Assembly (NCBI GenBank): GCA_024401515.1
Contig: JAKSKY010000004.1
Coordinates: forward strand, 1 to 50,995
DNA length: 50,995 nt
Reading direction: 5' to 3'
From: Paludibacteraceae bacterium
GTDB taxonomy: Bacteria; Bacteroidota; Bacteroidia; Bacteroidales; Paludibacteraceae
A model generated the notes under the pieces. It was not told the origin of the DNA and did not search any database. It saw only the letters and a list, made by a program, of their open reading frames with translations. Position numbers and translations under genes: made by a program. Shown one piece after another: positions 2,851 to 28,562 of this stretch. Numbering within the stretch: position 1 is the stretch's first letter; each line of letters opens with the position of its first letter.

Positions 2851-2853
2851 AAA

Positions 2854-2881: not shown

Positions 2882-2888
2882 ACTACAC

Positions 2889-2919
2889 AAAAAAAAAAAG
2901 ACCGCCAACAAAGCGGTCT
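2889..2919 (-). terminator. Strong intrinsic terminator ending the polysaccharide operon
   Basis: On the minus strand a 7-bp stem AGACCGC/GCGGTCT (2919-2913 with 2905-2899) closes a 7-nt loop and is followed by an unbroken run of 11 or more T residues. It lies 22 nt after the stop of the glycosyltransferase gene at 2942 and just before the promoter of the radical SAM gene. It therefore marks the end of the long operon. Confidence 0.9.
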
Positions 2920-2941
2920 CAAAAGATAATAATTGCGTGGA

Positions 2942-10115: not shown

Positions 10116-10147
10116 TTCAACATTAATAATTCACACCCAATCTATTC

Positions 10148-11326
10148 TTATGCATTGGGGAAATCTAGTACACTACGAATATCACATTGATAAGGAGATA
10201 ATTTCTCTGATATTATTCCACATCGATCCACCATATCCCCGTATCTTTTCTCATTAGATAAGTCTTTTAGAACTAAATCCAACTGGTCAACATTATCGAC
10301 AATCAAGCCAAATTCTCCAAATTTTCTTATCAAATAAGAAAAATGATCATTTCTAAAGGCGATAAATGGTTTTTTTTTCGCAATAGATTCGAAAATGGAA
10401 CCACTTACAGAAAAACAGAATCTATCTTTAGGATAAGGGAAAAATAGATAATCCATATCTGAAACAAGTTCATCATATTTCTCTCTAGACAAGAAACATC
10501 CCTGCGGATTCATCAGTTTCACATGTGAATTTTCCCCAATATTGTTTGAAGATGAGACCACCCTACTAATCACACATAACTCCACATTTGTACCATCTAA
10601 AGCAGAAACAAAAGCTTCAAGGTTTTCCAATCCCTTATTGGGTGCAACAGTTCCAACTAGTCCCACTTTAATTACGTCATCACTAAATGTTGCTTTCTCA
10701 TTATCATTCCTTTGTTGGGTTTGAAAATATGGATGATCAACAGAATAAAAATGTGCGATTCGATCGGCAGGAAGCGTCTTACGCAAGTTGTCAATAATGA
10801 AATCTCCCAATACCAAAAACCTAATATTTTTGGACCATTGTGTCTTACGGTAAAAACGATTGATCAAGTAAAACCAATTTGGATTAATAGGATACTTCTC
10901 TTTGACTAATACATCTAATTCATTATGAGCACAAACAACAACATTCCTTTTGAGTAGTCTTGATAAAAAATTGACAACATATAAAGAAAACCTAGAATTT
11001 CCATACGAAAAAATAAACACATCCTTTTTTTTTCCTTTTAACAAAATGAATGCGTCAATTAAAGCTACATATATATCAATTAGAAAATCAGACTTCAAAT
11101 CATATTGAACGCCATGCCAATTGCAATTTGAAAGCGATTCAGATTCACCATTTTGCTTTGCATAGGAGGAACATATATCTGTCAAAATAGCACACCTAGA
11201 AGTTGATAGATAGAGTTCTACCCTATCAAACAGCTTCGCTATCGAGATGATAAGGGATGCATCTATTATCTCATGAGTATTTCCTTTGAGTTTATTATTT
11301 ATTATGAAAGCTCTTCTTTTTACCAT
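10148..11326 (-). CDS. Putative glycosyltransferase (GT-B type)
   Basis: A 392-residue protein with weak but clear GT-B character. A nucleotide-sugar domain begins around K-V-G-L-V-G-T-V-A-P-N-K-G-L-E-N-L (about residues 220-236), continues through M-D-Y-L-F-F-P-Y-P, and reaches S-V-S-G-S-I-F-E-S-I-A-K-K-K-P (about 303-317), which stands where GT4 enzymes carry their donor-binding glutamate. The N-terminal half is divergent. It overlaps the polymerase gene upstream by 7 nt. Codon use is strongly AT-rich, as in the neighbouring polymerase gene. The fold is likely; donor and acceptor are not known. Confidence 0.7.
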   Translation of the reverse strand: MVKRRAFIINNKLKGNTHEIIDASLIISIAKLFDRVELYLSTSRCAILTDICSSYAKQNGESESLSNCNWHGVQYDLKSDFLIDIYVALIDAFILLKGKKKDVFIFSYGNSRFSLYVVNFLSRLLKRNVVVCAHNELDVLVKEKYPINPNWFYLINRFYRKTQWSKNIRFLVLGDFIIDNLRKTLPADRIAHFYSVDHPYFQTQQRNDNEKATFSDDVIKVGLVGTVAPNKGLENLEAFVSALDGTNVELCVISRVVSSSNNIGENSHVKLMNPQGCFLSREKYDELVSDMDYLFFPYPKDRFCFSVSGSIFESIAKKKPFIAFRNDHFSYLIRKFGEFGLIVDNVDQLDLVLKDLSNEKRYGDMVDRCGIISEKLSPYQCDIRSVLDFPNA

Positions 11327-12556: not shown

Positions 12557-13531
12557 TTATTTTAATCTACTCTTTCTATATCTCACATAGTTGCGAGGAG
12601 AGATAAGGAAACAATTCACATGCAACTGTTCTTTTAAAGGCAATGAACTCTTGATATTCTTCATTGCTTTTTTTATGTCAGCCAAATAGAGATAAAGAAG
12701 CGACCAATCGTTGTTATTATCTATATACTCCGTGTATTTATGGATAAAATGTTGGAACAATTCATATACCTTTTCACGATAGATGGCACGGTATTCCATC
12801 GCAACACACTCCTCGGTGAAATGATTGATGGAAATAACACCTTGCACCAAACCGACTATATTACGTTCGCTGATATTTGCGGTGATACTTCCTGATACTC
12901 TTCTCAGATAATAATACAATGGCTCTTCCACCACATCCACGCCCTTTACATAATAGAGCAATCGGGGAACATATTCCAAATCCTCATGCAAAATCTTCGG
13001 AAAGAAAAAGAGCTGGTTATCGAGGAGAATATTCCGTTTCACAACATATCGCTGAACAGGTGTCAAATGATTCATTTTCTTCATGAAATCAACTCCGGAG
13101 AGCTCTGAAGCGGACAAAGGCCACACACCTACCGCATTTTGTTTCCCATCACTCTCATTTACCCACAAAAGGTTGAGTCCATAACAATCCTTGCGGCTCT
13201 CCATCTTCTGGAATAAAATAGGCAACGCTTGGGGAGCTATGGTATCATCACTATCCACAAACCAGACATATTCACCTTTCGCAGCTCTCAAACCTACATT
13301 TCGAGCCACACTCAATCCAGCATTCTCTTGATTGATTAAAACGACATTGGGCAGTCCAGCAATTATTGGTTGAATCAATTCTACCGAACGATCCTTTGTA
13401 CCATCGTTGACAATGATTAGTTCCACATCTTGGAAGGCAACACCTTGGTTCACAATACTGGATATACATTTTTCAATGTATTTTTCAACATTGTATACTG
13501 GTACGATTATCGATAAGAAAGGAGGTTGCAT
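12557..13531 (-). CDS. Glycosyltransferase, GT2 family (GT-A fold)
   Basis: The protein has 324 residues. The N-terminus L-S-I-I-V-P-V-Y-N-V-E-K-Y-I-E-K-C is the classic GT2 opening. It is followed by I-I-V-N-D-G-T-K-D-R-S (about residues 39-49), N-A-G-L-S-V-A-R-N-V-G-L, and the metal-binding D-S-D-D near residues 94-97. The C-terminal 100 residues are variable and hold no membrane segment. It is likely to add one sugar to the lipid-linked repeat unit at the cytoplasmic face. The stop of the preceding GT2 gene is 9 nt upstream. Confidence 0.88.
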   Translation of the reverse strand: MQPPFLSIIVPVYNVEKYIEKCISSIVNQGVAFQDVELIIVNDGTKDRSVELIQPIIAGLPNVVLINQENAGLSVARNVGLRAAKGEYVWFVDSDDTIAPQALPILFQKMESRKDCYGLNLLWVNESDGKQNAVGVWPLSASELSGVDFMKKMNHLTPVQRYVVKRNILLDNQLFFFPKILHEDLEYVPRLLYYVKGVDVVEEPLYYYLRRVSGSITANISERNIVGLVQGVISINHFTEECVAMEYRAIYREKVYELFQHFIHKYTEYIDNNNDWSLLYLYLADIKKAMKNIKSSLPLKEQLHVNCFLISPRNYVRYRKSRLK

Positions 13532-13540
13532 ATAGCTTAT

Positions 13541-14506
13541 TTAATTCTTACGTCCCACTCTACTGAGGTAAGACATATAACATCTTCCTATGAGATGAAT
13601 CAATCGAATTGGCATCTTTCCATTATAAGACCACTGATTCAATAACTCTTGACGAATGGTTTCATTATCATATTGAAAACGCTCAACATCCAACAAGTAA
13701 ATGTGCCTTGCTCTGATTGATTCCAGCCAATTGAGCCAACCATGTTGTTCCATATAGCGCACAATCCAATAATCCTCACGTCCCGTAATACCCTGTCTCT
13801 TCTTTGCAGGTGAGACCTCATTGCCATGCTGACGGAACCAACTTAGCCGTTTAGGGACATGAACCACATTACCTTTCTTCGCCAAAAGAGCCCAAAACAA
13901 TCTATCTCCAGCCGCCACATAATCCATATAGCATTTATCTATTTCCAAGACATATTCCCTCTTGAAAATAACAGCACTGGCATTCCATACCGCATTGGTA
14001 TAGGACATCGGAGTTCTTACAAAATCGTCTCCCTTGATAATTTTTATTTGTTCAGATTCTGGGATGGGACGTATAAGTTGTCCCTCTTTATCCACAAATT
14101 GAGGAATACAATAGGCGACGGAAACATCGGGATAACTCATCACTTGAGCAACCAAAGTCTCCAAGAAGTTAGGTTCACAGAAATCGTCGCTCTCGGCAAT
14201 CCAGCAATAATCTCCCTTTGAAAGTTCTATACCTTTATTCCACTGGATAAAAGTGCTTCCACTATTGGTTTCATTATAGACAATATGGCTCACATGGGAA
14301 TTTTCCCGGTATTTTTCAATCACCGCCCTACTGGCACCATCATCTGGTGAACAATCGTCTAGAATGATAATCTCAAAATTATCATAAGTCTGATTCAAGA
14401 CAGATTGAATACGTTGATCCAAATATTGTGCATGACAATAATTGGGGATGATGACGGAAATTAATGGGTTACTCATATCTATTCTTTTCACATCCAATTC
14501 AGCCAT
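13541..14506 (-). CDS. Glycosyltransferase, GT2 family (GT-A fold)
   Basis: The protein has 321 residues. It carries L-I-S-V-I-I-P-N-Y-C-H-A-Q-Y-L (about residues 15-29), I-I-L-D-D-C-S-P-D-D-G near residues 47-57, and A-E-S-D-D-F as the metal-binding loop. This is a GT2 subgroup distinct from the neighbouring 12557-13531 enzyme. The ATG at residue 11 is an alternative start and would bring the protein closer to typical family length. It lies in the dense operon, 20 nt after the gene upstream. The sugar donor is unknown. Confidence 0.87.
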   Translation of the reverse strand: MAELDVKRIDMSNPLISVIIPNYCHAQYLDQRIQSVLNQTYDNFEIIILDDCSPDDGASRAVIEKYRENSHVSHIVYNETNSGSTFIQWNKGIELSKGDYCWIAESDDFCEPNFLETLVAQVMSYPDVSVAYCIPQFVDKEGQLIRPIPESEQIKIIKGDDFVRTPMSYTNAVWNASAVIFKREYVLEIDKCYMDYVAAGDRLFWALLAKKGNVVHVPKRLSWFRQHGNEVSPAKKRQGITGREDYWIVRYMEQHGWLNWLESIRARHIYLLDVERFQYDNETIRQELLNQWSYNGKMPIRLIHLIGRCYMSYLSRVGRKN

Positions 14507-14526
14507 TATTTCTCAATATTCAACAA

Positions 14527-16080
14527 TCATTTTTTAACATATCTATTCCAAAAAAGTTTAAGTCTAGATCTCAATGCAATTTTTCCCCTTAAAACATTCA
14601 GATTGCAATCAACAATATCATATAAAACATACATGAATCTTGCAGCCCAATGCGGATAATTTACATAATAATTCAAACACCTCTTTGTTTTAACACTTTT
14701 AGGAGAATTTGCAAACATTCCATAAATACGTTTGTCGGCATCAATTAAAGATGTTGGAGTTTCGTTGAAATCATGAATACTGTGAGTCAACGTCTTTAGT
14801 TCATCCATATAGTTATGAACTTTAGAAGCAAACGCATCTAATCCAGTCATTCTTATCAAACTTATTTTCGTCTGTTCCAGCAATCTAATTCTCTCATTCT
14901 CATCAGACAAACATCGAAGAGAATTTGAAATCATTTCCTCTAAATCTTCACAATACCCAGTACCTTTCTTTATCCAATCGACCCGAGAAACCGTCGTAAG
15001 AATTGGAACATTACACATTACGGCATCTTGCATTGTGGTCATTCCAGAAACAGGCAAACTATCTATCAATAAGTCAGAGGCAACAAGATGAACCATTAAT
15101 TCATCATGAGACATAGAGGGCAACAACCTAAATCTGTCACCATACTTTTCTGACAAATAGTTCCAAGACGGAATCATTCCATTTGTCACACCGATTACAT
15201 AATAGTAACAATTAGTATTTTGTGAAAGAATTGCATCAAACACAGAATTTAAATTAACATCTTCGTTCGGAAAAAACTTAAACGCAGTTCCTACACTTAA
15301 AACTATTTTTGAATTCTCCGAAATTGACAATCTCTCTCGTGCCTGTTTTTTTGAGCAAGAAGGTGTATTATGTTCAGACGGTACCGCTATAGTATGAGAA
15401 GAATATACACCCCTATAATTCTTTGACATTTTTTCTCCCCACTCCCTCATCTCAACCAATGAATCAACCACACTATATCCAACCCCAAACAAATGATCAG
15501 CATGATTATAGAATCCTACTGGTCTACGGAAGTTCTTGTTAGCAAAAGCCACAATCGGCAAAGGATCATTCATATGAACAAATAGCAATACTGATTCAAA
15601 AGAAGAAGCCATTTTTCGCATCATTTTCACTTTTGTTTCATACGAAACTTCCTGATTCAGTATAAATATCTTACCACCACTTGCATCAACGTCATTTCTT
15701 AACCTATCAGAAATTGAGCCATCAGCCATATCGCTAATCAAAACAGAATATCTACGAATTGAATCACTCTCTATCCAACGTTCTACGACACGAGTATGCC
15801 CACCAAATTTGTAAGGAGTCGTAAGCACTATAAGACATGTATCATCGACGTAATCATCATCAACAAACGACTCTATGCGATTAGAATACTCTATATAAAC
15901 CTTTTCAATCGAGGAAGATGAATAATAGCACGAAGCATTGAGCCATACATACTGCAATGCAATGTTCGCTAGTTCTAATCGTTTGTCAAAAGAATCTAAT
16001 ATATTTAGTTTATTCACAGCCTTTGTGAATAAATTCTGATTCTCCTGTATTGTTTTAGTCACAATATCATTACTAGACAT
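14527..16080 (-). CDS. Putative glycosyltransferase, long GT-B-like protein
   Basis: A 517-residue protein, longer than most glycosyltransferases. A Y-K-F-G-G-H-T-R-V-V-E-R segment near residues 90-101 resembles the glycine-rich N-domain loop of GT-B enzymes. S-V-G-T-A-F-K-F-F-P-N-E (about residues 265-276) and L-P-S-M-S-H-D-E-L followed by S-D-L-L-I-D-S-L-P-V-S-G-M-T-T (about 322-350) look like a nucleotide-sugar domain. About 85 N-terminal residues and 110 C-terminal residues, the latter basic and aromatic, are outside the recognisable core. Role in repeat-unit assembly is inferred from context. It lies between the aminotransferase and two GT2 genes. Confidence 0.6.
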   Translation of the reverse strand: MSSNDIVTKTIQENQNLFTKAVNKLNILDSFDKRLELANIALQYVWLNASCYYSSSSIEKVYIEYSNRIESFVDDDYVDDTCLIVLTTPYKFGGHTRVVERWIESDSIRRYSVLISDMADGSISDRLRNDVDASGGKIFILNQEVSYETKVKMMRKMASSFESVLLFVHMNDPLPIVAFANKNFRRPVGFYNHADHLFGVGYSVVDSLVEMREWGEKMSKNYRGVYSSHTIAVPSEHNTPSCSKKQARERLSISENSKIVLSVGTAFKFFPNEDVNLNSVFDAILSQNTNCYYYVIGVTNGMIPSWNYLSEKYGDRFRLLPSMSHDELMVHLVASDLLIDSLPVSGMTTMQDAVMCNVPILTTVSRVDWIKKGTGYCEDLEEMISNSLRCLSDENERIRLLEQTKISLIRMTGLDAFASKVHNYMDELKTLTHSIHDFNETPTSLIDADKRIYGMFANSPKSVKTKRCLNYYVNYPHWAARFMYVLYDIVDCNLNVLRGKIALRSRLKLFWNRYVKK

Positions 16081-16108: not shown

Positions 16109-17239
16109 TCAGCAGAATTTATTGATTAGAACAACTATCTTAGCTACCTCTTCCATACTAATCGTAGGACCGATAGGTAAACTCAACTCCTCATCCGCCA
16201 ATTTTTCAGTGATAGGCAAAGAAAGTTGCGGTATATTCCACGCCTCCTTTGCATAACACTCCTGTTTATGAGGAGCAATTGGATAATGACAAACTGTGCC
16301 AACACCATTCTGCTCAAGATAATCATGCAAACGATCACGATTAACCTTGCCACCAGAAACTATAATTGGGAAAAGATGATATGCATTTTGATCATCAGGC
16401 AACAAATCTGGAAGCGAAATCAAAGGATTACTAATATGCTCGTAATAGTAATGAGCCACCTCTTTACGGTGTGCATTATCCTGAACAAGATATTTTAATT
16501 TTACATCTAATACAGCAGCCTGAATTTCATCTAATCGACTGTTACGACCAGCATACTTAAAAACATATTTCTTTTGTGAACCATAATTAGCCAATGCTCG
16601 AACAGCAGCAGCCAATTCGGGATCATTAGTAGTTACTGCACCACCATCACCAAGAGCTCCAAGATTCTTTCCTGGATAGAACGAATGACCTGCAGCATCT
16701 CCGATAGAACCTGTAACACGACCATCGTAAGACTTACAGCCATGACTTTGAGCACAATCCTCTACTAATTTTAGTTTATATTTCTTGCATATCTCGCCGA
16801 TTTTATCCGTATAAGCGATGCGTCCATAAAGATGAACAATAGCAATCGCTTTTGTTTTGGGAGTTATGACAGCCTCGATCAAATCATCATTGATCTCAAG
16901 AGTATTTGGTTTGGGCTCAACCAAGACTGGAACCAAGCCATTCTCAGTGATAGCCAAAACAGTAGCAATATATGTATTAGCTGGAACGATTACCTCGTCA
17001 CCTGGCTTCATCACGCCCATTTCTATATAAGCACGGAAGATCCAAATGAGAGCATCAAGGCCATTGGCACATCCAATTGTATGTTTACAACCAATAAAGT
17101 CTGAGTAGTTCTTCTCAAATTGTTCATTCTCCTTTCCTTGGAGATACCAACCATTATTAACTACTCGAGAAACTGCTTCATTTATCTCCGCTCCATGAAG
17201 AGCGGTTACATCACGAAGGGATAGGAATGGTATATTCAT
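16109..17239 (-). CDS. Sugar-nucleotide 3-aminotransferase, DegT/DnrJ/EryC1/StrS family (FdtB/QdtB-like)
   Basis: A 376-residue PLP enzyme. The internal aldimine lysine is K191 in [16 protein letters not shown], and the cofactor aspartate is D161 in V-E-D-C-A-Q. The N-terminal N-N-G-W-Y-L-Q-G-K segment resembles FdtB and QdtB, which aminate dTDP-3-keto-6-deoxyhexoses with glutamate as donor. Two 3,4-ketoisomerase genes and a GNAT acyltransferase gene lie a few genes upstream. The inferred step is dTDP-3-keto-6-deoxyhexose to dTDP-Fuc3N or dTDP-Qui3N. A second family member at 27412-28551 is of the WbpE type. Confidence 0.82.
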
Positions 17240-17240
17240 G

Positions 17241-18197
17241 TCACAATTTATTTTTTAATAAAACGGATTTCATTATGTCATCAATAATTTTTGAAAATAG
17301 AATCACACATAATAACGGAACACATATTAAACAAAAAACAAAATCAAATCGCCCTAAATTATAATAAGAAGAGACGCCATATATCAATGGGAAAATTATA
17401 GACATATGCAGCATATAGACATTCAAAGTACGTGTTCCATACAAACTATACCATCGTTTATCTCTAGGGAAAACCTTTAACAAAGCGACAGAAGCCCCTA
17501 CGCAAAGAACCTGCATCATAACTCTTCTTATAAGCCCGCCAAATGAATCATAACCCTTTGCAAATTTTTGATACAAGTAGAAATCCGAATATCTATACAT
17601 TAAAACCATGCCGATAATCAAAGTCGAAAATAAAATAATATACCATACTATTTTATTTTCAAATCTATTTAAAATCTCTACTTTTCTTAAAACCAAACCA
17701 ATTAAAAAGAATGGATAAAAACAAAATAGTCTAGACAAGGAATATTCATAACCTACACAAGGTACAAATCCAATAATCCATGACACAATAAAACTAATTG
17801 GTATCAAAAACTTCAATGAAACATACTTCGTCAAAAAAGGCGTAATTATAGAGTATATGAACAATACAAACATATACCACATCGAAAATCCAAAACAATT
17901 CCACGGATAGGATGGACCACAGAATATACGCCCCTCAATAAACTCAACCAAACTAAACAACAAACATGGATATAATAATCTTAATGCATTTGTTTTAAAA
18001 TCCTTCTCTTTATACCAATAACCAGAAATAATAGTAAATAAAGGCATTCTAATCATGCATAAACTTCCAAGGAGAAGAAATACAAGACCAGATTTATCAT
18101 AACTCATATAATTTACAAACGAATGAGTTATAAGGACTAAAATCATCAGCCAAAACTTCAGATTATCCCATAAATAAACTCTACTACTATCGTACAT
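17241..18197 (-). CDS. Membrane acyltransferase, acyltransferase-3 family
   Basis: A 318-residue protein with about ten predicted membrane segments. The N-terminal [19 protein letters not shown] contains the family histidine. [13 protein letters not shown] (about residues 49-61) is the second motif. It is placed between the AMP-ligase gene (6 nt upstream) and the aminotransferase gene (1 nt downstream). It may accept an acyl group for transfer to sugar across the membrane, possibly from the locus's own carrier protein, though most of the family use acetyl-CoA. Very AT-rich codon use. Confidence 0.82.
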
Positions 18198-18203
18198 ATA
18201 GAT

Positions 18204-19610
18204 TTATCTTAGATTTTCAAGTGCCTGATAATTAATTTTCCCATTGGACAACAATGGCAACTGATTAATTGTTTTAAATTGAAATGCACGAGGATTAAAC
18301 CCTGTTTTTTCCACCAACATTGAAAGAATATTATCTTTTAAACTATCCTCACAAAGGAAAACGGTTATTAAATCATCAACTCCTACACAAGCACACAACG
18401 ACGTTATTTCCTTACATAATTGCTCTATTGCGTCAAGATTACATCGATTCCCCCATACCTTAACAAAACGTTTCATACGACCAGTTATATAGTAGAATCC
18501 GTCACTATCTCGTTGTGCTATATCACCAGTTCTAAGACATCCGTTATTATCATCTCCTTTTGAGAGATCCATTCGGCATTCGGCATATCCAAGAGAAACA
18601 TTCTTTCCATAGTAAACCAACTCACCGTCTCTACACGGCTCTAAAATTTCTGTTCCATCAGAATCCAGCAAGGCAAATTTTCCTCCAGGTATGCTGATAC
18701 CAATGGAAGAATATTTCTCTAAAGCATTTGACCATGGCAAATAACTCATACGAGCAGTAGCTTCTGTTTGCCCGTACATCACAAAAAATTTTTTTCCCTT
18801 TTCTTGTGAATATTCAATATATTCTTTGGCCAATTCTTTACTTAGTTTTCCACCCGCTTGAGTCATATAACGAAGAGAAGGAAGATCCATTTTGAAAAAA
18901 CGAAGACGTTTTAACATTTCAAATGTATAAGGAACTCCCGCTAAGGATGTAGCTTCATATTCTTTAAAAAACGCCCAGAATTCTCGCTGCAAAACAGCTT
19001 TATCAGTCAATAGAATTGTTGCGCCCTTTATCAAATGACTATTAATTACAGACAAACCATAACTATAATACATAGGAAGAACAGTTATAGGACGTTCATT
19101 ATGATCTATTGAAAGATAATTAGCAATAGACTCGGCATTAGAAAGAAGATTGTTTTCCGAAATTCTTACTAATTTAGGAGATCCCGTACTACCCGATGTG
19201 GTTAAACAAACCAATAACTCCGAATTTACGGGATGAAATCCTTCTGAAATTGCATATGACATCATCACCAAGGAATACGTCTGATATTGATGGACTATCG
19301 TTCCATTTACATCTTTTGATCTTGAAGTAGGCAACCAAATGTATTCCGGTTTGTATATATCTATTAACCTATGTATTAATTCAATATCTTTGCTTCCGTC
19401 TAATAATACCTGAGGTATTTTGTTTCTGATACAAGCGACATAACCAACTAATGAACCCAATAGATTCTCACAAAGTGTAAACACCAATCCTTTTCTAGGA
19501 ATAGATGCTACAAAATCATCTGTGCAATCAATTAACTGAGAATAAGTTAACGTCTCATTACGATCTGAAATAATCGCAATGTTTTCCTTGTATCGTAAGA
19601 AATCAAACAT
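18204..19610 (-). CDS. AMP-forming acyl/aminoacyl ligase (ANL superfamily adenylation enzyme)
   Basis: The 468-residue stand-alone enzyme carries the ANL core motifs in order: T-T-S-G-S-T-G-S-P-K (residues 137-146, phosphate loop), Y-G-Q-T-E-A (279-284), T-G-D (361-363), G-R-M-K-R-F-V-K-V-W-G (377-387, hinge) and L-S-N-G-K-I (454-459) with K458 as the catalytic lysine of the C-terminal lid. It should activate a carboxylic or amino acid as the adenylate and load it on a carrier protein or CoA. An acyl carrier protein gene lies 5 nt upstream, so that protein is the probable acceptor. The N-terminal part is shorter than in acetyl-CoA synthetases and nearer to DltA-like or NRPS-type enzymes. The acid is unknown. 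Confidence 0.85.
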   Translation of the reverse strand: MFDFLRYKENIAIISDRNETLTYSQLIDCTDDFVASIPRKGLVFTLCENLLGSLVGYVACIRNKIPQVLLDGSKDIELIHRLIDIYKPEYIWLPTSRSKDVNGTIVHQYQTYSLVMMSYAISEGFHPVNSELLVCLTTSGSTGSPKLVRISENNLLSNAESIANYLSIDHNERPITVLPMYYSYGLSVINSHLIKGATILLTDKAVLQREFWAFFKEYEATSLAGVPYTFEMLKRLRFFKMDLPSLRYMTQAGGKLSKELAKEYIEYSQEKGKKFFVMYGQTEATARMSYLPWSNALEKYSSIGISIPGGKFALLDSDGTEILEPCRDGELVYYGKNVSLGYAECRMDLSKGDDNNGCLRTGDIAQRDSDGFYYITGRMKRFVKVWGNRCNLDAIEQLCKEITSLCACVGVDDLITVFLCEDSLKDNILSMLVEKTGFNPRAFQFKTINQLPLLSNGKINYQALENLR

Positions 19611-19615
19611 AGAAA

Positions 19616-19855
19616 TTAAAAGATTATATTGTACTTATTTGTCAATATAGTCAAACCCTTTGAATACGAAGTAAAATCCAAAATATCATCTGGGTCTAAT
19701 TCTATCTCAAACATTTCCTCGATGTTAGATGCTAAAATCATATGGCCAACTGAATCCCATAATTCCGTAACCTTATATTCCGCATTTTCAATCTCATCTG
19801 GTTGTAGTTGGAAAGACTCACAAAACAAATTGTTATATTTTTCTATATTTGTCAT
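19616..19855 (-). CDS. Acyl carrier protein, phosphopantetheine-binding
   Basis: A 79-residue acidic protein of ACP size. The attachment serine is S35 in L-W-D-S-V-G-H-M, followed by an amphipathic helix and E-M-F-E-I-E-L-D, as in carrier proteins. It differs from the standard fatty-acid AcpP motif (D-S-L-D), which points to a dedicated carrier. It sits 18 nt after a GNAT acyltransferase gene and 5 nt before the AMP ligase gene, so the ligase likely loads it and the acyltransferases unload it. Confidence 0.85.
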   Translation of the reverse strand: MTNIEKYNNLFCESFQLQPDEIENAEYKVTELWDSVGHMILASNIEEMFEIELDPDDILDFTSYSKGLTILTNKYNIIF

Positions 19856-19873
19856 AATTTTATTGTTTTTTTA

Positions 19874-20422
19874 TTATTTATACAACATTCTAATATATAC
19901 TTGTTTCTTTTTCTCAAAATTTTCCTGGCTTAGAGAATAAAACATATTGTTTTCATCGTCAGTTCTCAAATAAGTTGGATTATATGACAATCTATATCTT
20001 TGAACATTAGTATTATTTGAACGAACATCAAACAAATTTATTGAGCCTGGATTTAGAGAAAAACCTATCTCTCGAGAAATTATGTCAGCCAATATACCAG
20101 CTCCATTTTCAGCAGATTGAGAAAAGACCCAACTTCCCGTAGTAAAATCAGTTTCATGTATATGGTATATTCGAGTCACGCCTTGTTTTACTCCATTTTT
20201 TGAAAATAAAAAATAATACTCTCGGCCTTCTTTCTCTCGATTTTTATACTCTCTAATCCAATCTACCTGTTTGTCAACATCATTATCCGTTCGGTGGATA
20301 ACACTATTGGCCTTATCTGTAGTTCTAATCGAAACTATAAATTCAGCATCACTTTCATCAACAAGTCTTACATCGAGACCATATTTATGCAAAGTGAAAT
20401 TTTCTGGTAATAATTTCAACAT
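19874..20422 (-). CDS. GNAT-fold N-acyltransferase, probable sugar-nucleotide N-acyltransferase
   Basis: A 182-residue protein of GNAT character. It has D-V-R-L-V-D-E-S-D-A-E-F-I-V-S-I-R near residues 16-32 and ends in R-Y-R-L-S-Y-N-P-T-Y, resembling the R-Y-x-x-x-G-F ending of small N-acetyltransferases; the acetyl-CoA pyrophosphate loop is poorly kept. It sits 2 nt after a 3,4-ketoisomerase gene and 18 nt before the acyl carrier protein gene. The inferred role is N-acylation of the 3-amino group of dTDP-Fuc3N or Qui3N, possibly with acyl-ACP in place of acetyl-CoA. Whether it uses CoA or ACP cannot be told from sequence alone. Confidence 0.7.
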   Translation of the reverse strand: MLKLLPENFTLHKYGLDVRLVDESDAEFIVSIRTTDKANSVIHRTDNDVDKQVDWIREYKNREKEGREYYFLFSKNGVKQGVTRIYHIHETDFTTGSWVFSQSAENGAGILADIISREIGFSLNPGSINLFDVRSNNTNVQRYRLSYNPTYLRTDDENNMFYSLSQENFEKKKQVYIRMLYK

Positions 20423-20424
20423 AA

Positions 20425-20844
20425 TTATTCTTCTCTAAACCTTAAAAATTCATCATATTCACGAATATAATCTTCTGGAGTATATAATTCAGAAGCCAAG
20501 ACCATGCATACCGCACCGGATGAAAAATCCTCCAAGTCGCGCCACATACCAGGTTTCACATACAATCCTTGATAAGGACGATTAAGGAAAAAAGATCTTT
20601 TACACTTTCCATCATCCAATGTCACACGAAACGATCCCGATGCGGCAATTATGAGTTGTTCAAGATCACGATGAGCGTGGGAACCTCTGTTTTCACCACC
20701 GGGAACATCATAAAGATAATAGACTCTTTTGACATCAAATGGCAACGTTTTACCATTTTCAACCACACATAGATTTCCTTTTCGGTCACTATGGTGTTTA
20801 TCCAATTCTACTATCGTACAATCAAAAACACTATATTTTGCCAT
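20425..20844 (-). CDS. dTDP-4-keto-6-deoxyhexose 3,4-ketoisomerase, FdtA/QdtA family
   Basis: A 139-residue single-domain cupin. The F-D-V-K-R-V-Y-Y-L-Y-D-V-P-G-G (36-50) and N-R-G-S-H-A-H-R-D-L-E-Q (52-63) segments match FdtA and QdtA, with H56 and H58 forming the H-A-H active-site motif, followed by D-D-G and G-L-Y-V-K-P-G-M-W. Family members move the keto group of dTDP-4-keto-6-deoxyglucose from C4 to C3; FdtA leads to the galacto product and QdtA to the gluco product. Which one this is cannot be decided here. The substrate could come from RmlB at 26222-27364. It overlaps its paralogue upstream by 14 nt. Confidence 0.85.
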   Translation of the reverse strand: MAKYSVFDCTIVELDKHHSDRKGNLCVVENGKTLPFDVKRVYYLYDVPGGENRGSHAHRDLEQLIIAASGSFRVTLDDGKCKRSFFLNRPYQGLYVKPGMWRDLEDFSSGAVCMVLASELYTPEDYIREYDEFLRFREE

Positions 20845-21247
20845 TTTTCTTCAAATTTAAGAACTCATCATAATTCCTCACATAATCTTTGGAATCATAA
20901 TGAGTCGAAGCAAATTCCAAAGCTAACGAATTAGTTGAAAAATTATCTATTTCCCTCCATAATCCCTTTGGAATATACAACCCATAATAAGATCTATTTA
21001 GCGTAAAAGTCTTTTTTTTCACACCATCATCCACAGTCACATCAAAACCACCCGACAAGGCGACGATGAATTCCTCTGTGTTTGAGTATGCGTGACCGCC
21101 ACGACATTCGCCTCCCGGAACATCAAATATCCAATATGTTCTCTTTATATCAAAAGGAATATGATTGGACTGTTCAATAAAGGACAAATTACCTCGAGGA
21201 TCATTGAACTTAGGAAGAGTTATTATATGAACGTCATCTACTGTCAT
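20831..21247 (-). CDS. Second 3,4-ketoisomerase-like cupin (WxcM/FdtA family)
   Basis: A 138-residue paralogue of the next gene. It shows the same I-P-F-D-I-K-R-T-Y-W-I-F-D-V-P-G-G and G-L-Y-I-P-K-G-L-W blocks. The active-site motif reads G-G-H-A-Y, so H52 is kept but the second histidine is tyrosine (Y54). Such variants are found in other Bacteroidota loci and may have different stereochemistry or bind without the same chemistry. The gene overlaps the 20425-20844 gene by 14 nt, so the pair arose in tandem or was inherited as a pair and is likely cotranslated. Confidence 0.8.
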   Translation of the reverse strand: MTVDDVHIITLPKFNDPRGNLSFIEQSNHIPFDIKRTYWIFDVPGGECRGGHAYSNTEEFIVALSGGFDVTVDDGVKKKTFTLNRSYYGLYIPKGLWREIDNFSTNSLALEFASTHYDSKDYVRNYDEFLNLKKNGKI

Positions 21248-21266: not shown

Positions 21267-22772
21267 TTAAACCAATTCTAAATTATTATATATTCTCGTC
21301 ATATATGGTTGTGTAAATTTAGGAAATTTTGAAATAATTCCAGGACCTCCAATACTTAATATTTCACGAATGCCTTTGGTTTTAAAAGCAATCGACAAAA
21401 GAAGATAACCTACAATACCCACAATAACCTGAAGTGTAAACACAACAAGATAATGTATATTCCAAAAAGAAACAAAGTACATAGCAGCACCGATAATGAC
21501 ACAAACGCCCATGGTTGGAAGAATATCAGCTAGCTGTTGAAAAATCGAATACCCAAACAGCTTTCGATTCGGCCAAGAATTAACCATTACACAAAATGGG
21601 CCAATAACGAAAGCCATACAGACCATCAATGTCATAACACTGTAACGAACAGCAACCAATACGACAATAATGGAGAAAATCTTCTTTACAATCTCTAACA
21701 CAAGTGATATATCCGTCCTTCCCAAAGCTGCAATGGCTTGAAGATTCATATTATGCAATGGATAAAGAGCCATTTGAAAACAAGCTAGTTGGACATAGGG
21801 TATACATGACAACCATTGTTCACCAAACATAAGCTTAACTTGCCCATATGCGGTACAGGCCAAAATTGTCATTAAAGGGAAAACGAAAAAGGTAGAACAA
21901 ACTATCATCTTTCGCATGGTTGCCACCATCTTTTCCTTATCATTTTGAAACTTAGACATCGTTGGCAATGCAACCCTTCCCAAAGTTCCCTCAATTGAAC
22001 TCATTATAGTGAGTGGTTGATTTTGACCTTTATTCACAAAGGCAAGATCTTCTTTGGTATAAATTTTTCCAATTAATACACCATAGAAATTTTTATAGAA
22101 TGTGTCCAACAAATTTACAATCACCATTTTCCAACCAAAACCAAACAATGGTTTCAACGCAGAGAAACTGAACATTAACTTAGGACGCCATTTTACGATA
22201 AACCATCTTGATATAGTCGCCACCAATCCAGATATAACTTGACTCCATACCAATGCCCAGACGCCGTAACCTAACAATGCCATACCGATTCCAATAACAG
22301 CTGAGGTTATAGTAGAAATCAAGCTCACCTTAAAACTTAGATTAAATAAAAGATTTCTTGCAATCTCCGCATTCTGAACAGTATTAATACTAGCAAACAA
22401 TAATGTTATGGCCTGAACCCGTAAGATATCCACAAGAATCGAATCATTGTAAAAATCAGCAATATACGGAGCTACAATAAACAATACAATATATAGAACG
22501 CACGACAAACATAGGCTACAATAGAAAACAGAATTAAAATCCATTTCCGAGACCTCCTTTTTTTGAATCAATGCCAGTCCAAGACCACCATCAATCAAAA
22601 CAGAGGCAAAAAGGATAAAAAGGGATAATAATGCTACCGTTCCATAGTCAGTAGGAGACAATATTCGAGCAAGCACCATGCTCACAATAAAGACAATAGC
22701 TTGACTACTGAAACGTTCCAGTAGCGACCATATTGACCCTTTTACAACCTGTTTTTTTAACTCAGAAGCCAT
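21267..22772 (-). CDS. Wzx-type oligosaccharide flippase (WzxC-like, MOP superfamily)
   Basis: A 501-residue polytopic membrane protein with about 12-14 segments. The start V-V-K-G-S-I-W-S-L-L-E-R-F-S-S-Q and A-R-I-L-S-P-T-D-Y-G-T-V-A are typical of the PST2/WzxC branch. It moves undecaprenyl-diphosphate-linked repeat units to the periplasmic face, where the EpsG-type polymerase at 11320-12537 would join them. It lies between ugd and the ketoisomerase pair in the operon. One copy only is visible, so the locus looks like a single Wzx/Wzy system. Confidence 0.88.
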   Translation of the reverse strand: MASELKKQVVKGSIWSLLERFSSQAIVFIVSMVLARILSPTDYGTVALLSLFILFASVLIDGGLGLALIQKKEVSEMDFNSVFYCSLCLSCVLYIVLFIVAPYIADFYNDSILVDILRVQAITLLFASINTVQNAEIARNLLFNLSFKVSLISTITSAVIGIGMALLGYGVWALVWSQVISGLVATISRWFIVKWRPKLMFSFSALKPLFGFGWKMVIVNLLDTFYKNFYGVLIGKIYTKEDLAFVNKGQNQPLTIMSSIEGTLGRVALPTMSKFQNDKEKMVATMRKMIVCSTFFVFPLMTILACTAYGQVKLMFGEQWLSCIPYVQLACFQMALYPLHNMNLQAIAALGRTDISLVLEIVKKIFSIIVVLVAVRYSVMTLMVCMAFVIGPFCVMVNSWPNRKLFGYSIFQQLADILPTMGVCVIIGAAMYFVSFWNIHYLVVFTLQVIVGIVGYLLLSIAFKTKGIREILSIGGPGIISKFPKFTQPYMTRIYNNLELV

Positions 22773-22778
22773 ATACCA

Positions 22779-24101
22779 CTAATCCCTTCTAAAAATATCC
22801 CTCGTATAAACCTTCTCCTCAACATCATCCAAGCAACTGTCATAACGATTGGCGATGATGGCTTGGCTCTGCGCCTTGAACTTCGCCAAATCATTAACAA
22901 CAAGGCTTCCGAAGAAGGTTTCACCATCCTTCAAAGTCGGTTCGTAGATGATGATGGTCGCACCTTTCGCTTTGATACGCTTCATCACACCTTGAATGGA
23001 ACTTTGACGGAAGTTATCCGAATTGGACTTCATGGTCAAACGATAGACACCGATGGTCACCGCCGCCTCATCGCCACCATATTGGTTGTTCTTTGAGTAG
23101 CCATAATAGCCCGCCTTGCTCAACACCTGATCCGCAATAAAATCCTTTCGGGTTCTGTTGCTCTCCACAATGGCTGTCATCATATTTTGAGGCACATCCG
23201 CATAGTTGGCCAACAACTGCTTAGTATCCTTTGGCAAGCAATAACCTCCATATCCGAAAGATGGGTTATTGTAGTGGGTTCCGATTCTCGGATCCAGACC
23301 GACACCTTGGATAATGGCTTGGGCATCCAATCCCTTCACCTCCGCATAGGTATCCAACTCGTTGAAGTAACTAACACGAAGTGCTAAATATGTATTAGCG
23401 AAAAGCTTGACAGCCTCCGCCTCCTTCATACCCATAAAGAGCGTCTCGATATCCTCTTTCAACGCGCCCTCCTTCAAAAGGTCAGCAAATGTTTTGGCAG
23501 CCTTCTCCAAGAATGGGACATCGGCGATTTTCGCGATTGCCTTATTCTCCTCCTCGAACTCCACATTGTCGATCACTTTAGGATAACCCACTATGATACG
23601 GGAAGGATATAGATTATCATACAATGCCTTGCTCTCACGCAAGAATTCAGGAGAGAACAACAAATTGAATTTGTCGACACCCTTTTGCGCATACTTGACA
23701 TAAAGATTACGCGTATAGCCGACCGGGATAGTACTCTTGATAACCATCACTGCAGATGGATTCACCTCCAAAACTAGATCGATTACCTCCTCTACATGGG
23801 TGGTGTCAAAGTAATTTTTTACCGGATCATAGTTGGTAGGCGCCGCAATCACCACAAAATCAGCATCCTTGTAGGCCGAAGCTCCATCTAATGTGGCAGT
23901 TAAGTTCAGCTGCTTTTCCGCCAAATATTTTTCTATATATTCATCTTGAATCGGTGATTGCTTACGATTGATCATCTCAACCTTCTCAGGGACAACGTCC
24001 ACAGCAACCACTTGATGCTTTTGAGCCAACAATGTAGCGATACTCAAACCGACATACCCTGTACCCGCTACGGCAATCTTTAAATCTTCAAAATTTCTCA
24101 T
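22779..24101 (-). CDS. ugd: UDP-glucose 6-dehydrogenase
   Basis: NAD-dependent enzyme making UDP-glucuronate from UDP-glucose. It has the Rossmann start [14 protein letters not shown], the V-I-K-S-T-I-P-V-G segment, the F-S-P-E-F-L-R-E block, and the catalytic cysteine in [11 protein letters not shown]. The whole sequence follows the E. coli Ugd pattern (388 residues), with an insertion of about 30 residues after the R-I-I-V-G-Y segment and a short one near the Y-G-Y-S-K-N-N segment. This argues against UDP-GlcNAc dehydrogenase (WbpA). The start at 24101 avoids overlapping the upstream gene; an ATG at 24122 would add seven residues and overlap by 16 nt. Confidence 0.9.
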
Positions 24102-24106
24102 ATTCA

Positions 24107-25126
24107 CTATTTTTTTGACCATACACCATCACGAACCGCATAGATCCGTTCGATGATATCAACGACCTTCAAACCTTCCAATACGTTTGTTGTAATGCAA
24201 TTATCATTTTGCAGCGTATCGATCACATTTTTTATAACCAAATGATGGTTTTGGGCAGAGCCCTTATAGGCACCATAATCATTCGGCGGATTACTAGGCG
24301 CCAACTCAGGCATCTCATAATCCTGGATATGACAATAGACGACTTCATTCATATATTGTCCCGCCACCTTGATGGTACCCTTCTCACCGATGATCGTTAT
24401 GCTGCTCTCAAGGTTGGTGTCCCAAACGGCTGTTGAGTAATTCAAGCAACCCATACCTCCGTTCATAAAGTCAAATGTCACAACACCACTATCCTCAAAA
24501 TCGGTTAGATCCTTATGGGAGAAATCATTAAAATGCCCCACAATATTGGTGATGTCACCAAATAACCAATACATGATATCGATGAAATGGGAGAATTGGG
24601 TAAAGAGGGTTCCACCATCTAAACGGCCATCACCATGCCAATTGCCTTTCTTGTAGTAACGTTGATCACGGTTCCAGAAACAATTTAATTGAACCATGAA
24701 AATCTTACCCAACTTATTCTCCGTCACCATTTGCTTCAACCAAACGGATGGTGGCGAATAACGGTTTTGCATCACACAGAAAACACGCTTTGAAACCTCC
24801 AAAGACTTATACACCAATTTCTCGGCATCAGCTTTACTCAATGCGATAGGTTTTTCAATTACCACATGATGCTTCGCTTCCAACACTTTCAAGGCATAGG
24901 GTGCATGAAAGAAGTTCGGGGTGCAAATATTCACCACATCAACCTCTACATTGGAATTCAAAAGATCCTCTATGGATGAGAAAAACGGAAGTTCATCCGT
25001 AAATTCGACCTCTTCCTTTGACAAAACATCGCATACCGCCACCAACTCCGCATCCGGATTCCTGCGAATCATCTCAGCATGACGTTTTCCGATGTGTCCA
25101 TATCCTATTACAGCGAATTTCACCAT
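24107..25126 (-). CDS. Gfo/Idh/MocA oxidoreductase, WbpB/WlbA-like sugar 3-dehydrogenase
   Basis: The protein has 339 residues from the ATG at 25126, which puts the Rossmann motif [15 protein letters not shown] at the N-terminus; a longer frame starts at a TTG 39 nt upstream and is less likely. E-K-P-I-A-L-S is the family's second motif. The C-terminal catalytic domain includes [13 protein letters not shown], with the active-site histidine. Placed next to a WbpD-like acetyltransferase gene, it is probably the dehydrogenase that forms a 3-keto UDP-uronate for amination. Its true substrate (UDP-GlcNAcA or another sugar) is not settled, as no WbpA was seen. Confidence 0.8.
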
Positions 25127-25177
25127 TTTCAAAGCTGTTTTTCTATTCGTATATTCCTCGGCCAAACATCCAGTGGA

Positions 25178-25753
25178 TTAGCCTATCTTTTTAACAAAAT
25201 TATCGTTCAATTCGTAAATTGCTTGTGTTTCGGGACAAGTGGCGCGACCTGTTTCATCAAAGCGCAAACGATGGCCATATTCACTCACCCATCCGATTTG
25301 TTTGCCAGGGTTCCCAACTACCAACGCAAAGGGTTTCACATCCTTTGTCACCACGCTACCAGCGCCAATCATCGCATATGCACCAATTTCCACACCACAA
25401 ACCACTGTAGCGTTCGCCCCAATTGAAGCACCCTTTCTGACGATTGTTTGTCGAAACTCATTTTTTCGATTAACAAAACTTCTTGGGTTAATTACATTCG
25501 TGAATACCATAGAGGGCCCCAAAAAGACATCATCCTCGCATATAACACCCGTGTAAACGGAAACATTATTTTGAATTTTCACATTATCACCGATCTTTAC
25601 TTCCGGAGAAATCACCACATTTTGACCAATATTGCAATTTTTTCCAATAACAGATCCCGACATCACATGCGAAAAATGCCATATTTTCACACCATCACCA
25701 ATCACACAATCCTCATCGATGACAGCAGTATTATGTGCAAAAAAAATGCTCAC
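25178..25753 (-). CDS. Left-handed beta-helix N-acetyltransferase, WbpD/WlbB-like
   Basis: A 191-residue hexapeptide-repeat protein. It includes K-I-W-H-F-S-H-V, I-Q-N-N-V-S-V-Y-T-G-V, G-P-S-M-V-F-T-N-V-I-N-P-R-S, R-K-G-A-S-I-G-A-N-A-T-V-V-C-G and L-V-V-G-N-P-G-K-Q-I-G-W, all diagnostic of WbpD/WlbB, which acetylates the 3-amino group of UDP-GlcNAc3NA. The start is GTG at 25753, since the frame closes nine codons upstream and no ATG lies between. It is the first gene of the 22-gene operon, about 200 nt after its promoter. The partner aminotransferase (WbpE-like) is coded in the neighbouring operon at 27412-28551. Confidence 0.85.
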   Translation of the reverse strand: MSIFFAHNTAVIDEDCVIGDGVKIWHFSHVMSGSVIGKNCNIGQNVVISPEVKIGDNVKIQNNVSVYTGVICEDDVFLGPSMVFTNVINPRSFVNRKNEFRQTIVRKGASIGANATVVCGVEIGAYAMIGAGSVVTKDVKPFALVVGNPGKQIGWVSEYGHRLRFDETGRATCPETQAIYELNDNFVKKIG

Positions 25754-25964
25754 TTGTAAGTTTAGGCAAAAACTTCGTTATCGTGAATAACATGGCAGGA
25801 CATACCAAATCACTCACTATCAAATAATTCGAATAAAACATAGATGATTTCCACCCATCAAAGCACCAAATGCCACAACGAGTAAAAGAAAGCATCCTAA
25901 TAAGACACAACCCACGGATTCTCGCACCTTCCAAAAAGGCGCTATTATTCCCATAAGCAGTATG
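25754..25964 (-). other. Transcribed leader of the polysaccharide operon with small open frames
   Basis: About 200 nt lie between the promoter and the first firm start codon. A 44-codon frame (25954-25820) starts with ATG about 5-10 nt after the expected transcription start and codes for a peptide with one hydrophobic stretch (C-V-L-L-G-C-F-L-L-L-V-V-A-F-G-A-L). A second frame from ATG 25895 to 25731 overlaps the first gene. Neither has recognisable family marks, and both may be chance. No clear attenuator hairpin and no UpxY/RfaH-type gene was found. Confidence 0.35.
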
Positions 25965-25995
25965 CAAATATAATAGAAATGGGAATTATTTCAAA
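25965..25995 (-). promoter_or_regulatory. Promoter of the polysaccharide operon (TTTG-N19-TATATTTG)
   Basis: On the minus strand TTTG (25995-25992) is followed by 19 nt and then TATATTTG (25972-25965), an exact match to the Bacteroidota -33/-7 consensus with ideal spacing. Transcription should start near 25958. It is the only full-consensus promoter seen upstream of the 22-gene unit. Confidence 0.75.
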
Positions 25996-26164
25996 ACTTA
26001 TATGTCACTTTTTTCCACATGTTCGAGCCCATCAAAACATAGTAAAATTAGGTGTTTTACAACATGAAAATCGGAACTAGAAAAACACTTTTTTCAACAA
26101 GATTTCACACCCACAAACAATATGATATTTTGGTGAAACTTGTAAGAAGTACGTTTCAAAAGAC
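25996..26164. other. Intergenic spacer between two minus-strand operons
   Basis: An AT-rich stretch of about 170 bases between the rmlB terminator and the polysaccharide promoter. No open frame, tRNA or hairpin of note was seen. It is the natural place for upstream control sites of the locus, but none was recognised. Confidence 0.5.
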
Positions 26165-26166
26165 AA

Positions 26167-26202
26167 AAAAAATACTGCCAATTGGATGTGGCAGTATTTT
26201 TT
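26167..26202 (-). terminator. Intrinsic terminator after rmlB
   Basis: A 14-bp stem (26167-26180 with 26189-26202, core TACTGCCA/TGGCAGTA) closes an 8-nt loop and is followed on the minus strand by a run of T residues. It lies 20 nt beyond the rmlB stop codon. It separates the dapA-rmlB unit from the polysaccharide operon. Confidence 0.88.
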
Positions 26203-26221
26203 AGAATATATTCAAAACCAA

Positions 26222-27364
26222 TTATTTACCCTTGTACATCTCTTCGTAGTACTTTTCATAATCACCACTAGTGATGTTATCCATCCACTCTTGGTTATCC
26301 AAATACCACTTAACAGTCTTCTCTATACCCTCTTCAAACTGAAGGCTTGGTTCCCAACCCAATTCTCTTTGTAATTTAGTTGAATCAATCGCATAACGAG
26401 CATCATGGCCCAAACGATCAGTCACATAGGTGATCAAATCCATGTCCTCGCCTTCCCTACGGCCCAACAAGCGATCAACTGTCTTGATAACCACCTTAAT
26501 GATATCAATGTTTTTCCACTCATTGAATCCTCCGATATTGTAAGTCTCAGCCACCTTACCATTGTGGAAGATCACGTCAATCGCGCGAGCATGATCCTCA
26601 ACAAACAACCAGTCACGGACATTCTCACCCTTACCATACACAGGCAATGGTTTACGATGACGGATGTTATTGATAAACAACGGAATCAACTTCTCAGGGA
26701 ATTGATAAGGGCCATAGTTATTGGAGCAATTCGTCACGATTGTAGGCATACCATATGTGTCATGGAATGCGCGTACAAAGTGATCTGAGCCAGCCTTTGA
26801 AGCTGAATATGGAGAGTGAGGATTGTATTTCGTCGTCTCGTAGAAGAAATCCTCACCATATGCCAAGTGATGCTCACTGCTAGAGGCAGTAGTTGAGAAT
26901 GGAGGCTCAATTCCCTCTGGATGCGTCATGGACAATGCGCCATAGACCTCATCGGTAGAAATATGATAGAATCGCTTGCCCTCATATTTTTCAGGCAATG
27001 ATTCCCAATACAATTTAGCAGCTTGCAACAAAGAGAGTGTTCCCATCACATTGGTCTTCGCGAAAGTGAACGGATCTTTGATGGAACGATCCACGTGGCT
27101 CTCTGCCGCAAGGTGGATAACACCATCAATCTTCTCGTCTTGCATTAATTGATAGAACGCATCGAAATCACAGATATCCATCTTAACAAACTTGTAATTG
27201 GTACGACCCTCTATATCCTTCAAATTCGCCAAATTACCCGCATAAGTAAGTTTGTCTAAGTTAATGATATTGTAATCAGGATATTTGTTTACAAATAATC
27301 TCACCACATGAGAGCCGATAAATCCAGCTCCACCTGTAATCACAATGTTTCTCTTACTAGCCAT
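26222..27364 (-). CDS. rmlB: dTDP-glucose 4,6-dehydratase
   Basis: A 380-residue short-chain dehydrogenase family enzyme. It has the NAD motif G-G-A-G-F-I-G-S-H (residues 11-19), the T-D-E triad at 137-139 used for dehydration, and Y186-x3-K190 in P-Y-S-A-S-K. It converts dTDP-glucose to dTDP-4-keto-6-deoxyglucose. RmlA, RmlC and RmlD are not in the window, so the product is not necessarily meant for rhamnose. The FdtA-like ketoisomerases at 20425-21247 use exactly this intermediate. It is the last gene before a strong terminator, 47 nt after the aminotransferase gene. Confidence 0.93.
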   Translation of the reverse strand: MASKRNIVITGGAGFIGSHVVRLFVNKYPDYNIINLDKLTYAGNLANLKDIEGRTNYKFVKMDICDFDAFYQLMQDEKIDGVIHLAAESHVDRSIKDPFTFAKTNVMGTLSLLQAAKLYWESLPEKYEGKRFYHISTDEVYGALSMTHPEGIEPPFSTTASSSEHHLAYGEDFFYETTKYNPHSPYSASKAGSDHFVRAFHDTYGMPTIVTNCSNNYGPYQFPEKLIPLFINNIRHRKPLPVYGKGENVRDWLFVEDHARAIDVIFHNGKVAETYNIGGFNEWKNIDIIKVVIKTVDRLLGRREGEDMDLITYVTDRLGHDARYAIDSTKLQRELGWEPSLQFEEGIEKTVKWYLDNQEWMDNITSGDYEKYYEEMYKGK

Positions 27365-27411
27365 ATATTTTTCTTATTATGTTTTACTAAATATTAAAAT
27401 CCGATGGGTTA

Positions 27412-28551: not shown

Positions 28552-28562
28552 ACGCACATCTT

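Follow-up and report, generated by a model that had tools for sequence, protein, structure and literature searches.

A 50,995-nucleotide stretch of DNA from a Paludibacteraceae bacterium (assembly GCA_024401515.1, contig JAKSKY010000004.1; hereafter the window) carries, at positions 16109–21247, a block of seven genes in which an acyl carrier protein (ACP) and an AMP-forming ligase appear to be plugged into the pathway to a dTDP-3-amino-3,6-dideoxyhexose. In the reading we favor, to which we give a probability of roughly two in three, this pair is an acyl-supply cassette: the ligase would load an acid without an amino group, and a GNAT enzyme would acylate the 3-amino group of the sugar. The block is probably functional and a real new variant of carrier-protein-dependent sugar N-acylation.

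All seven genes lie on the minus strand in one tight run, transcribed in the order FdtA1, FdtA2, GNAT, ACP, ligase, acyltransferase-3 and DegT aminotransferase. Their coordinates give a 14-base overlap of FdtA1 with FdtA2, followed by gaps of 2, 18, 5, 6 and 1 bases. A preliminary description of this DNA, made from the sequence, had placed all seven genes at these positions, and their families were confirmed by Pfam and PDB matches, by conservation among homologues and by a structural model. The genes of the block and two others of the same locus are:

20831–21247, minus strand: FdtA1, an FdtA paralogue with HAY in place of HAH (Pfam FdtA, 1e-51).
20425–20844, minus strand: FdtA2, dTDP-4-keto-6-deoxyglucose 3,4-ketoisomerase with both histidines (Pfam FdtA, 4e-53; closest PDB entries 7n67 and 2pa7).
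19874–20422, minus strand: FdhC-type GNAT, presumed 3-amino N-acyltransferase (PDB 5kta, FdhC).
19616–19855, minus strand: dedicated ACP, with Ser35 in the motif WDSV.
18204–19610, minus strand: putative stand-alone AMP-forming acid:ACP ligase (Pfam AMP-binding, 2e-40).
17241–18197, minus strand: acyltransferase-3 membrane protein (Pfam Acyl_transf_3, 9e-16).
16109–17239, minus strand: FdtB/QdtB-type aminotransferase, by family placing nitrogen onto C3 (Pfam DegT, 5e-99).
21267–22772, minus strand: Wzx-type flippase, the next gene upstream (Pfam Polysacc_synt_3, 4e-91).
26222–27364, minus strand: RmlB, dTDP-glucose 4,6-dehydratase (NCBIfam TIGR01181, 443.5 bits against a cut-off of 365.1).

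The ACP and the ligase are a dedicated pair. Relatives of the ligase, defined at E ≤ 1e-60, turned up in the window's own genome alone among 16 of the genus, in 39 of 358 genomes of the family and in 8 of 393 genomes of an order sample, these sets overlapping, and at a further 12 loci in a separate collection of genome contigs. Together with the window and those 12, 40 of the 45 further places (all except G036, G141, G085, G169 and G131) gave 53 ligase loci; some organisms may be represented in both sources. For 50 of the 53 ligases, a homologue of the ACP is encoded on the same strand no more than 6 kb away; of the remaining three, L060 has one farther off, and a contig end is close by in L059 and L086. 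This pairing speaks against a coenzyme A (CoA) ligase that merely sits beside an unrelated ACP. Within the ligase, Lys458 and the residues TGD at 361–363 are invariant in all 53 sequences. The ACP falls below the Pfam PP-binding cut-off (0.0077); the serine of its WDS motif, Ser35, is invariant in 50 of 50 ACP homologues near ligases, the window's included, and its structural model (pLDDT 94.8) has acyl carrier proteins as its top PDB matches (TM score 0.77; Foldseek E 4e-3, so that no match reaches 1e-3). Conservation and model together place the serine that would carry pantetheine at the beginning of a helix within an ACP fold.

Two settings of the ligase are common: a short-chain dehydrogenase/reductase (SDR) followed by ligase, ACP and β-ketoacyl-ACP synthase III (KASIII), and ACP followed by SDR, transketolase subunits, ligase, LuxE and LuxC. 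With neighboring genes labeled by BLAST matches at E ≤ 1e-4, homologues of KASIII occur near 31 of the 53 ligases, of Lux proteins near 15 and of transketolase subunits near 12. The Lux-linked loci (L007, L008, L010–L015, L018, L057, L059, L060 and L085–L087) form an observation of their own: a ligase of the window type sits there with LuxE/LuxC homologues, accompanied by its ACP where the contig allows and often by split transketolase subunits, and in L010–L013 the two Lux homologues are fused into one protein of 755 amino acids. Judged by gene content, these loci may encode an uncharacterized acid-to-aldehyde and two-carbon pathway within polysaccharide loci. For the loci with transketolase-like genes, a glycolyl-ACP route like that of QncN/QncL/QncM, as described in an excerpt of PMC6335953, is possible; it is not applicable to the window.

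The sugar into which this pair would feed is made by a recognizable set of enzymes. RmlB, an FdtA/QdtA ketoisomerase and an FdtB/QdtB aminotransferase are all present in one locus by Pfam, PDB and NCBIfam matches, and with RmlB there the precursor of dTDP-3-amino sugars can be made on the spot. The closest PDB relatives of FdtB are 7n63 (1e-112) and 5u1z (2e-111), with 3frk (QdtB) also matched, and the scores of FdtA2 are nearly equal for 7n67, 2pa7 and 5tpu (130, 128 and 126 bits). The predicted product is therefore given as either dTDP-Fuc3N or dTDP-Qui3N. In locus L063, we noted an FdtB homologue (13128–14768) whose aminotransferase sequence is interrupted midway by an in-frame insert containing a DUF559 domain.

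The preliminary description had counted two ketoisomerases. Two FdtA-type proteins are indeed encoded, but a second active enzyme is doubtful: FdtA2 has the active-site motif HAH, whereas FdtA1 has HAY, so that only FdtA2 keeps both histidines. Alignments show that the histidines of this motif, which we take to be catalytic, are those changed in PDB entries 2pae and 2pak. Among 26 FdtA domains picked by the pattern RG.HA. (a count that omits the truncated second FdtA of L116), 11 have HAY or HAF and 15 have HAH. The 11 form one clade with support of 100/100, every member of which carries HAY or HAF; it comprises window 20831–21247 and homologues in L089, L109 and L112–L119. Each such copy adjoins or is fused with an HAH copy, the exception being L116 with its truncated second copy, and in L089 and L114 the FdtA1 and FdtA2 halves are a single protein. 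L063, L110 and L111 have HAH copies only. By this pattern, FdtA1 is likely a partner or regulatory subunit of FdtA2 and not a second full ketoisomerase.

The third gene of the block falls below the Pfam GNAT cut-off (0.0022). Its single significant PDB match is FdhC (5kta, E 7e-28), aligned over residues 8–181 of 182; an excerpt of PMC4869667 names FdhC as the Fuc3N 3-hydroxybutanoyltransferase. A relative of the window's GNAT is fused with FdtA2 in one reading frame in L109. From this homology we presume that the enzyme is the N-acyltransferase for the 3-amino group.

We then asked in which company the two parts occur. Of the 53 ligases, three (in the window, L063 and L089) are accompanied by FdtA, FdtB and FdhC-type genes; a weak FdtA-like match in L013 (31% identity, 43% coverage, E 2e-4) was below threshold and was not counted. 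The three Fdt-linked ligases do not form one clade (approximately unbiased test, p 2e-5), and each pairing of two was rejected as well. Between the window and L089, FdtA2 is 87% and FdtB 77% identical, whereas the GNAT, the ACP and the ligase are 43%, 45% and 41% identical. Exchange of the acylation part with the sugar part retained would leave just such a pattern, and in this comparison the acyl cassette appears to have changed while the sugar genes stayed.

An FdhC-type GNAT profile built from the window, L063 and L089 matched 9 of the 358 genomes of the family and 6 of the 393 of the order sample (G000 being in both), which gave 14 loci. Exclusion of L116, which lies at a contig edge and has a broken GNAT, left 13 readable FdhC-type loci, among them two short contigs with no FdtB visible (L114, 4.0 kb; L118, 3.2 kb). 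In these 13 loci the genes beside the GNAT include an ACP in five, a ligase without ACP in one, KASIII with or without SDR in four and no supply gene in three; the share with an ACP is not unbiased, as three of the 14 loci are the profile's own members. The five with an ACP are the window and four others: L063, which also has an SDR and a ligase; L089, which has both of these and transketolase subunits; L111, where the order GNAT–ACP–ligase is completed by a ligase of another family (9804–11234); and L118, where the GNAT is joined by an Acyl_transf_1 protein and an ACP. Since L111 and L118 lie outside the profile, they lend independent support to the link with an ACP. L110 has a ligase (a frame of 404 amino acids) and an SDR, with no ACP detected. 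KASIII stands with SDR beside the GNAT in L112, L114 and L115, and KASIII is also present in L117; in two of these four loci KASIII was confirmed by Pfam and in two by BLAST at 26–27% identity. The central claim of the preliminary description, that an acyl supply dependent on a carrier protein is coupled to the making of a dTDP-3-amino sugar, is thus supported by the pairing of ligase and ACP at 50 of 53 loci, by three ligase lineages that stand beside FdtA and FdhC without forming a clade, and by KASIII/SDR or other ligases in the same slot of other FdhC-type loci.

Taken together, the families suggest the following route. RmlB would make dTDP-4-keto-6-deoxyglucose, as in the established pathway, FdtA2, probably paired with FdtA1, would move the keto group to C3, and FdtB would aminate C3 to give dTDP-Fuc3N or dTDP-Qui3N. 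The ligase, whose pairing and catalytic residues are observed, would adenylate a small carboxylic acid that lacks an amino group and load it onto the pantetheine of Ser35 of the ACP. The FdhC-type GNAT would then take the acyl group over from the ACP and attach it to the sugar's 3-amino group, with both donor and acceptor predicted, and the acylated sugar would be used by the glycosyltransferases and the flippase of the locus.

The ligase itself gives some indication of its acid. Its fold is like that of MenE, oxalyl-CoA ligase and the adenylation (A) domains of nonribosomal peptide synthetases, and its structural matches, DltA among them, are tied across substrate classes, so that no acid is singled out. 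In an alignment with PDB entry 3wvn, which we take to be VinN, the Asp that presumably holds the amino group of the substrate is replaced by Ser in the window; the same column holds Ser or Thr in all 53 ligases (21 Ser, 32 Thr). A non-amino acid is therefore expected, and an aminoacyl residue, which the preliminary description had allowed for, is unlikely. The pocket strips of the window's ligase and of the ligases from Lux- and transketolase-type loci are closely alike, and these enzymes may use a similar acid. Our best guess is a short hydroxy acid, by analogy with the 3-hydroxybutanoyl group of FdhC and the 2,4-dihydroxybutanoate of RfbL.

The same residue bears on a quite different arrangement, a Dlt-like machine in which an amino acid would be loaded onto the carrier protein and put by the membrane acyltransferase on the finished glycan outside the cytoplasm. 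DltABCD carries out D-alanylation with a stand-alone adenylating enzyme and a small carrier protein, and its MBOAT protein acts on the finished polymer. The window shares the stand-alone adenylating enzyme and the small carrier protein; it differs in its predicted non-amino substrate and in a GNAT predicted to act on a sugar nucleotide. The ligase scores 109.7 bits against the DltA equivalog, whose cut-off is 559.85, and among its structural matches DltA ties with many other enzymes. As for the membrane protein, it belongs to Acyl_transf_3 and not to MBOAT, the DltB type, and Pfam names no DltD among the window genes scanned. The resemblance to DltA/DltC/DltB drawn in the preliminary description finds no support here beyond the general logic, and we consider such a machine very unlikely. 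As a separate matter, two FdhC-type loci (L089:10377–15210 and L111:9804–16208) contain an AMP-forming ligase of another family together with an MBOAT protein, and both are closer to the Dlt logic than the window is.

Several results weigh against a cassette that serves the 3-amino sugar. The neighborhood comparison proposed in the preliminary description did find the ligase and the ACP with FdtA and FdtB, but 50 of the 53 ligase loci have no FdtA or FdhC genes within 6 kb, which means that the pair is not specific to this sugar. The tree of GNATs, from which L116 was left out, is poorly resolved and does not set the ACP-linked members apart. In L109, L113 and L119 there is no ACP, ligase or KASIII between the GNAT and FdtB; with three of 13 loci so arranged, such GNATs are probably able to draw on the general pool for a CoA thioester, and the same may hold in the window.

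These points lend some weight to an alternative in which the general pool would provide the GNAT with acetyl-CoA or 3-hydroxybutyryl-CoA, and the ACP and ligase would work for a different acylation of the same glycan, perhaps by way of the acyltransferase-3 protein. Loci with FdtA1, FdtA2, GNAT and FdtB that lack a supply gene between the last two are as expected under it, as are ligase pairs that occur without FdhC, and an acyltransferase-3 gene is found in the block of both the window and L063. However, the ACP–ligase pair occupies the position that acyl-making genes hold in other FdhC loci. Moreover, L089 has the pair and an MBOAT protein instead, with no acyltransferase-3 among its genes labeled by BLAST or scanned by Pfam, and acyltransferase-3 was detected at only 2 of the 53 ligase loci, with a weak and insensitive model built from three sequences. 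The acyltransferase-3 protein may be a separate, unrelated O-acetylase. On balance, we regard an acylation of this second kind as unlikely, although it is the alternative that we take most seriously.

Also on the negative side is the source of the acid. The window stands alone among the 53 ligase loci in having, within 6 kb, no homologue of SDR, KASIII, transketolase or Lux proteins, so that none of these could supply the acid from close by, and a search of the genome (an assembly 88% complete) gave no family match to LuxE. Both absences would fit a remnant, a ligase and ACP acquired without the enzymes that make the acid and now non-functional. Against such decay stand intact reading frames, the catalytic residues, which are kept, and the tight spacing with adjoining genes, and we think a remnant very unlikely. 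The supply cassette for the 3-amino sugar is still the reading that we prefer.

Parts of this arrangement are known from other systems, cited here from excerpts of the papers. FdhC is the dTDP-Fuc3N N-(3-hydroxybutanoyl)transferase that occurs with RmlA, FdtA and FdtB in E. coli O103 and Hafnia PCM1211, and gene sets for Fuc3N/Qui3N(R3Hb) are described in Acinetobacter (PMC4869667, PMC3726653). The excerpts of PMC4869667 and PMC3726653 name no ACP or ligase in the FdhC systems, whereas the window has both. What these systems have in common with the window is a single block with FdtA, FdtB and a GNAT homologous to FdhC. The donor for FdhC is reportedly a CoA thioester.

In Vibrio cholerae O1, RfbK and RfbL are a carrier protein and a ligase for 2,4-dihydroxybutanoate (PMC12208996). 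They share with the window a ligase in a polysaccharide locus with its own small carrier protein, and they differ in that the sugar is another one. The acceptor is said to be perosamine, and RfbN is said to be an acyl reductase of the LuxE/LuxC type. A comparable feature is seen in the Lux-linked subset (15 of 53) of window-type ligase loci, but the window's own pair has no Lux homologue within 6 kb and its genome no LuxE match, within the limits of search given above.

A further system is from Bacteroidota. For the O-polysaccharide of Flavobacterium psychrophilum, the Wfp proteins include an ACP (WfpD), ketoacyl synthases (WfpC/E), a reductase (WfpF) and an acyltransferase (WfpG), and, as predicted for the window, an ACP specific to the locus is proposed to supply an amino sugar nucleotide with its unusual acyl group (PMC6519341). 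There, de novo synthesis of the acyl group is proposed and a PglD-type enzyme would acylate a 4-amino sugar, whereas the window has a ligase, a predicted 3-amino sugar and a GNAT; no KASIII or SDR homologue that could match the Wfp synthase and reductase lies within 6 kb of the window's ligase. Rhodobacteria likewise keep a specialized ACP and a putative acyl-CoA synthetase beside serine palmitoyltransferase (PMC9386255); here too an ACP of its own and an enzyme that activates an acid adjoin one that uses the acyl group, though for sphingolipid and not for polysaccharide. The preliminary description had called the arrangement little described. For the combination itself, none of the open-license literature matches listed presents an ACP and a ligase alongside FdtA and FdhC, and the excerpts on RfbK/RfbL, Wfp and FdhC do not bring an ACP, a ligase and an FdhC-type GNAT together on a 3-amino sugar either; the principle is not new, since ACP-dependent acylation of O-antigen amino sugars has been proposed before (excerpts of PMC6519341 and PMC12208996). 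One match with both "acyl carrier protein" and "Fuc3N", PMC8042644, was unrelated to the combination as far as its excerpt goes.

Tentatively, and with odds somewhat below even, the FdhC-type enzymes of Bacteroidales may be carrier-protein-dependent as a group and fed by exchangeable cassettes (ligase with ACP, KASIII with SDR, Acyl_transf_1 protein with ACP, or transketolase-like proteins with ACP and ligase), so that one pathway would handle many acids; on this view the ketoisomerase would be an obligate FdtA1/FdtA2 pair in which one partner lacks an active-site histidine. If true, variation in the acids of Bacteroidales surface sugars would follow a simple rule, sugar genes kept and acyl cassette swapped, and the structures of uncharacterized capsules would be easier to predict from gene order. 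The ligase, the ACP, the GNAT and the FdtA pair are also a small system that could be purified, both for a comparison of ACP and CoA donors and for making unusual N-acyl sugar nucleotides.

The surroundings of the block are those of a polysaccharide locus. Upstream lie the Wzx-type flippase, a UDP-glucose dehydrogenase-like protein, a Gfo/Idh oxidoreductase, a hexapeptide transferase, RmlB and a second DegT enzyme; downstream, a protein of 517 amino acids without a Pfam match is followed by glycosyltransferases and an EpsG-type protein. The presence at 22779–28557 of the UDP-sugar dehydrogenase, the oxidoreductase, the hexapeptide transferase and the second DegT enzyme suggests a second amino sugar, of the 2,3-diamino-uronic acid type, the pathway to which we assume these enzymes belong. 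Farther downstream, the window encodes a radical SAM/SPASM protein (1639–3054), a protein of 613 amino acids without a Pfam match (5075–6916), a member of the polysaccharide pyruvyl transferase family (6913–8040) and one of the nitroreductase family (8037–9014).

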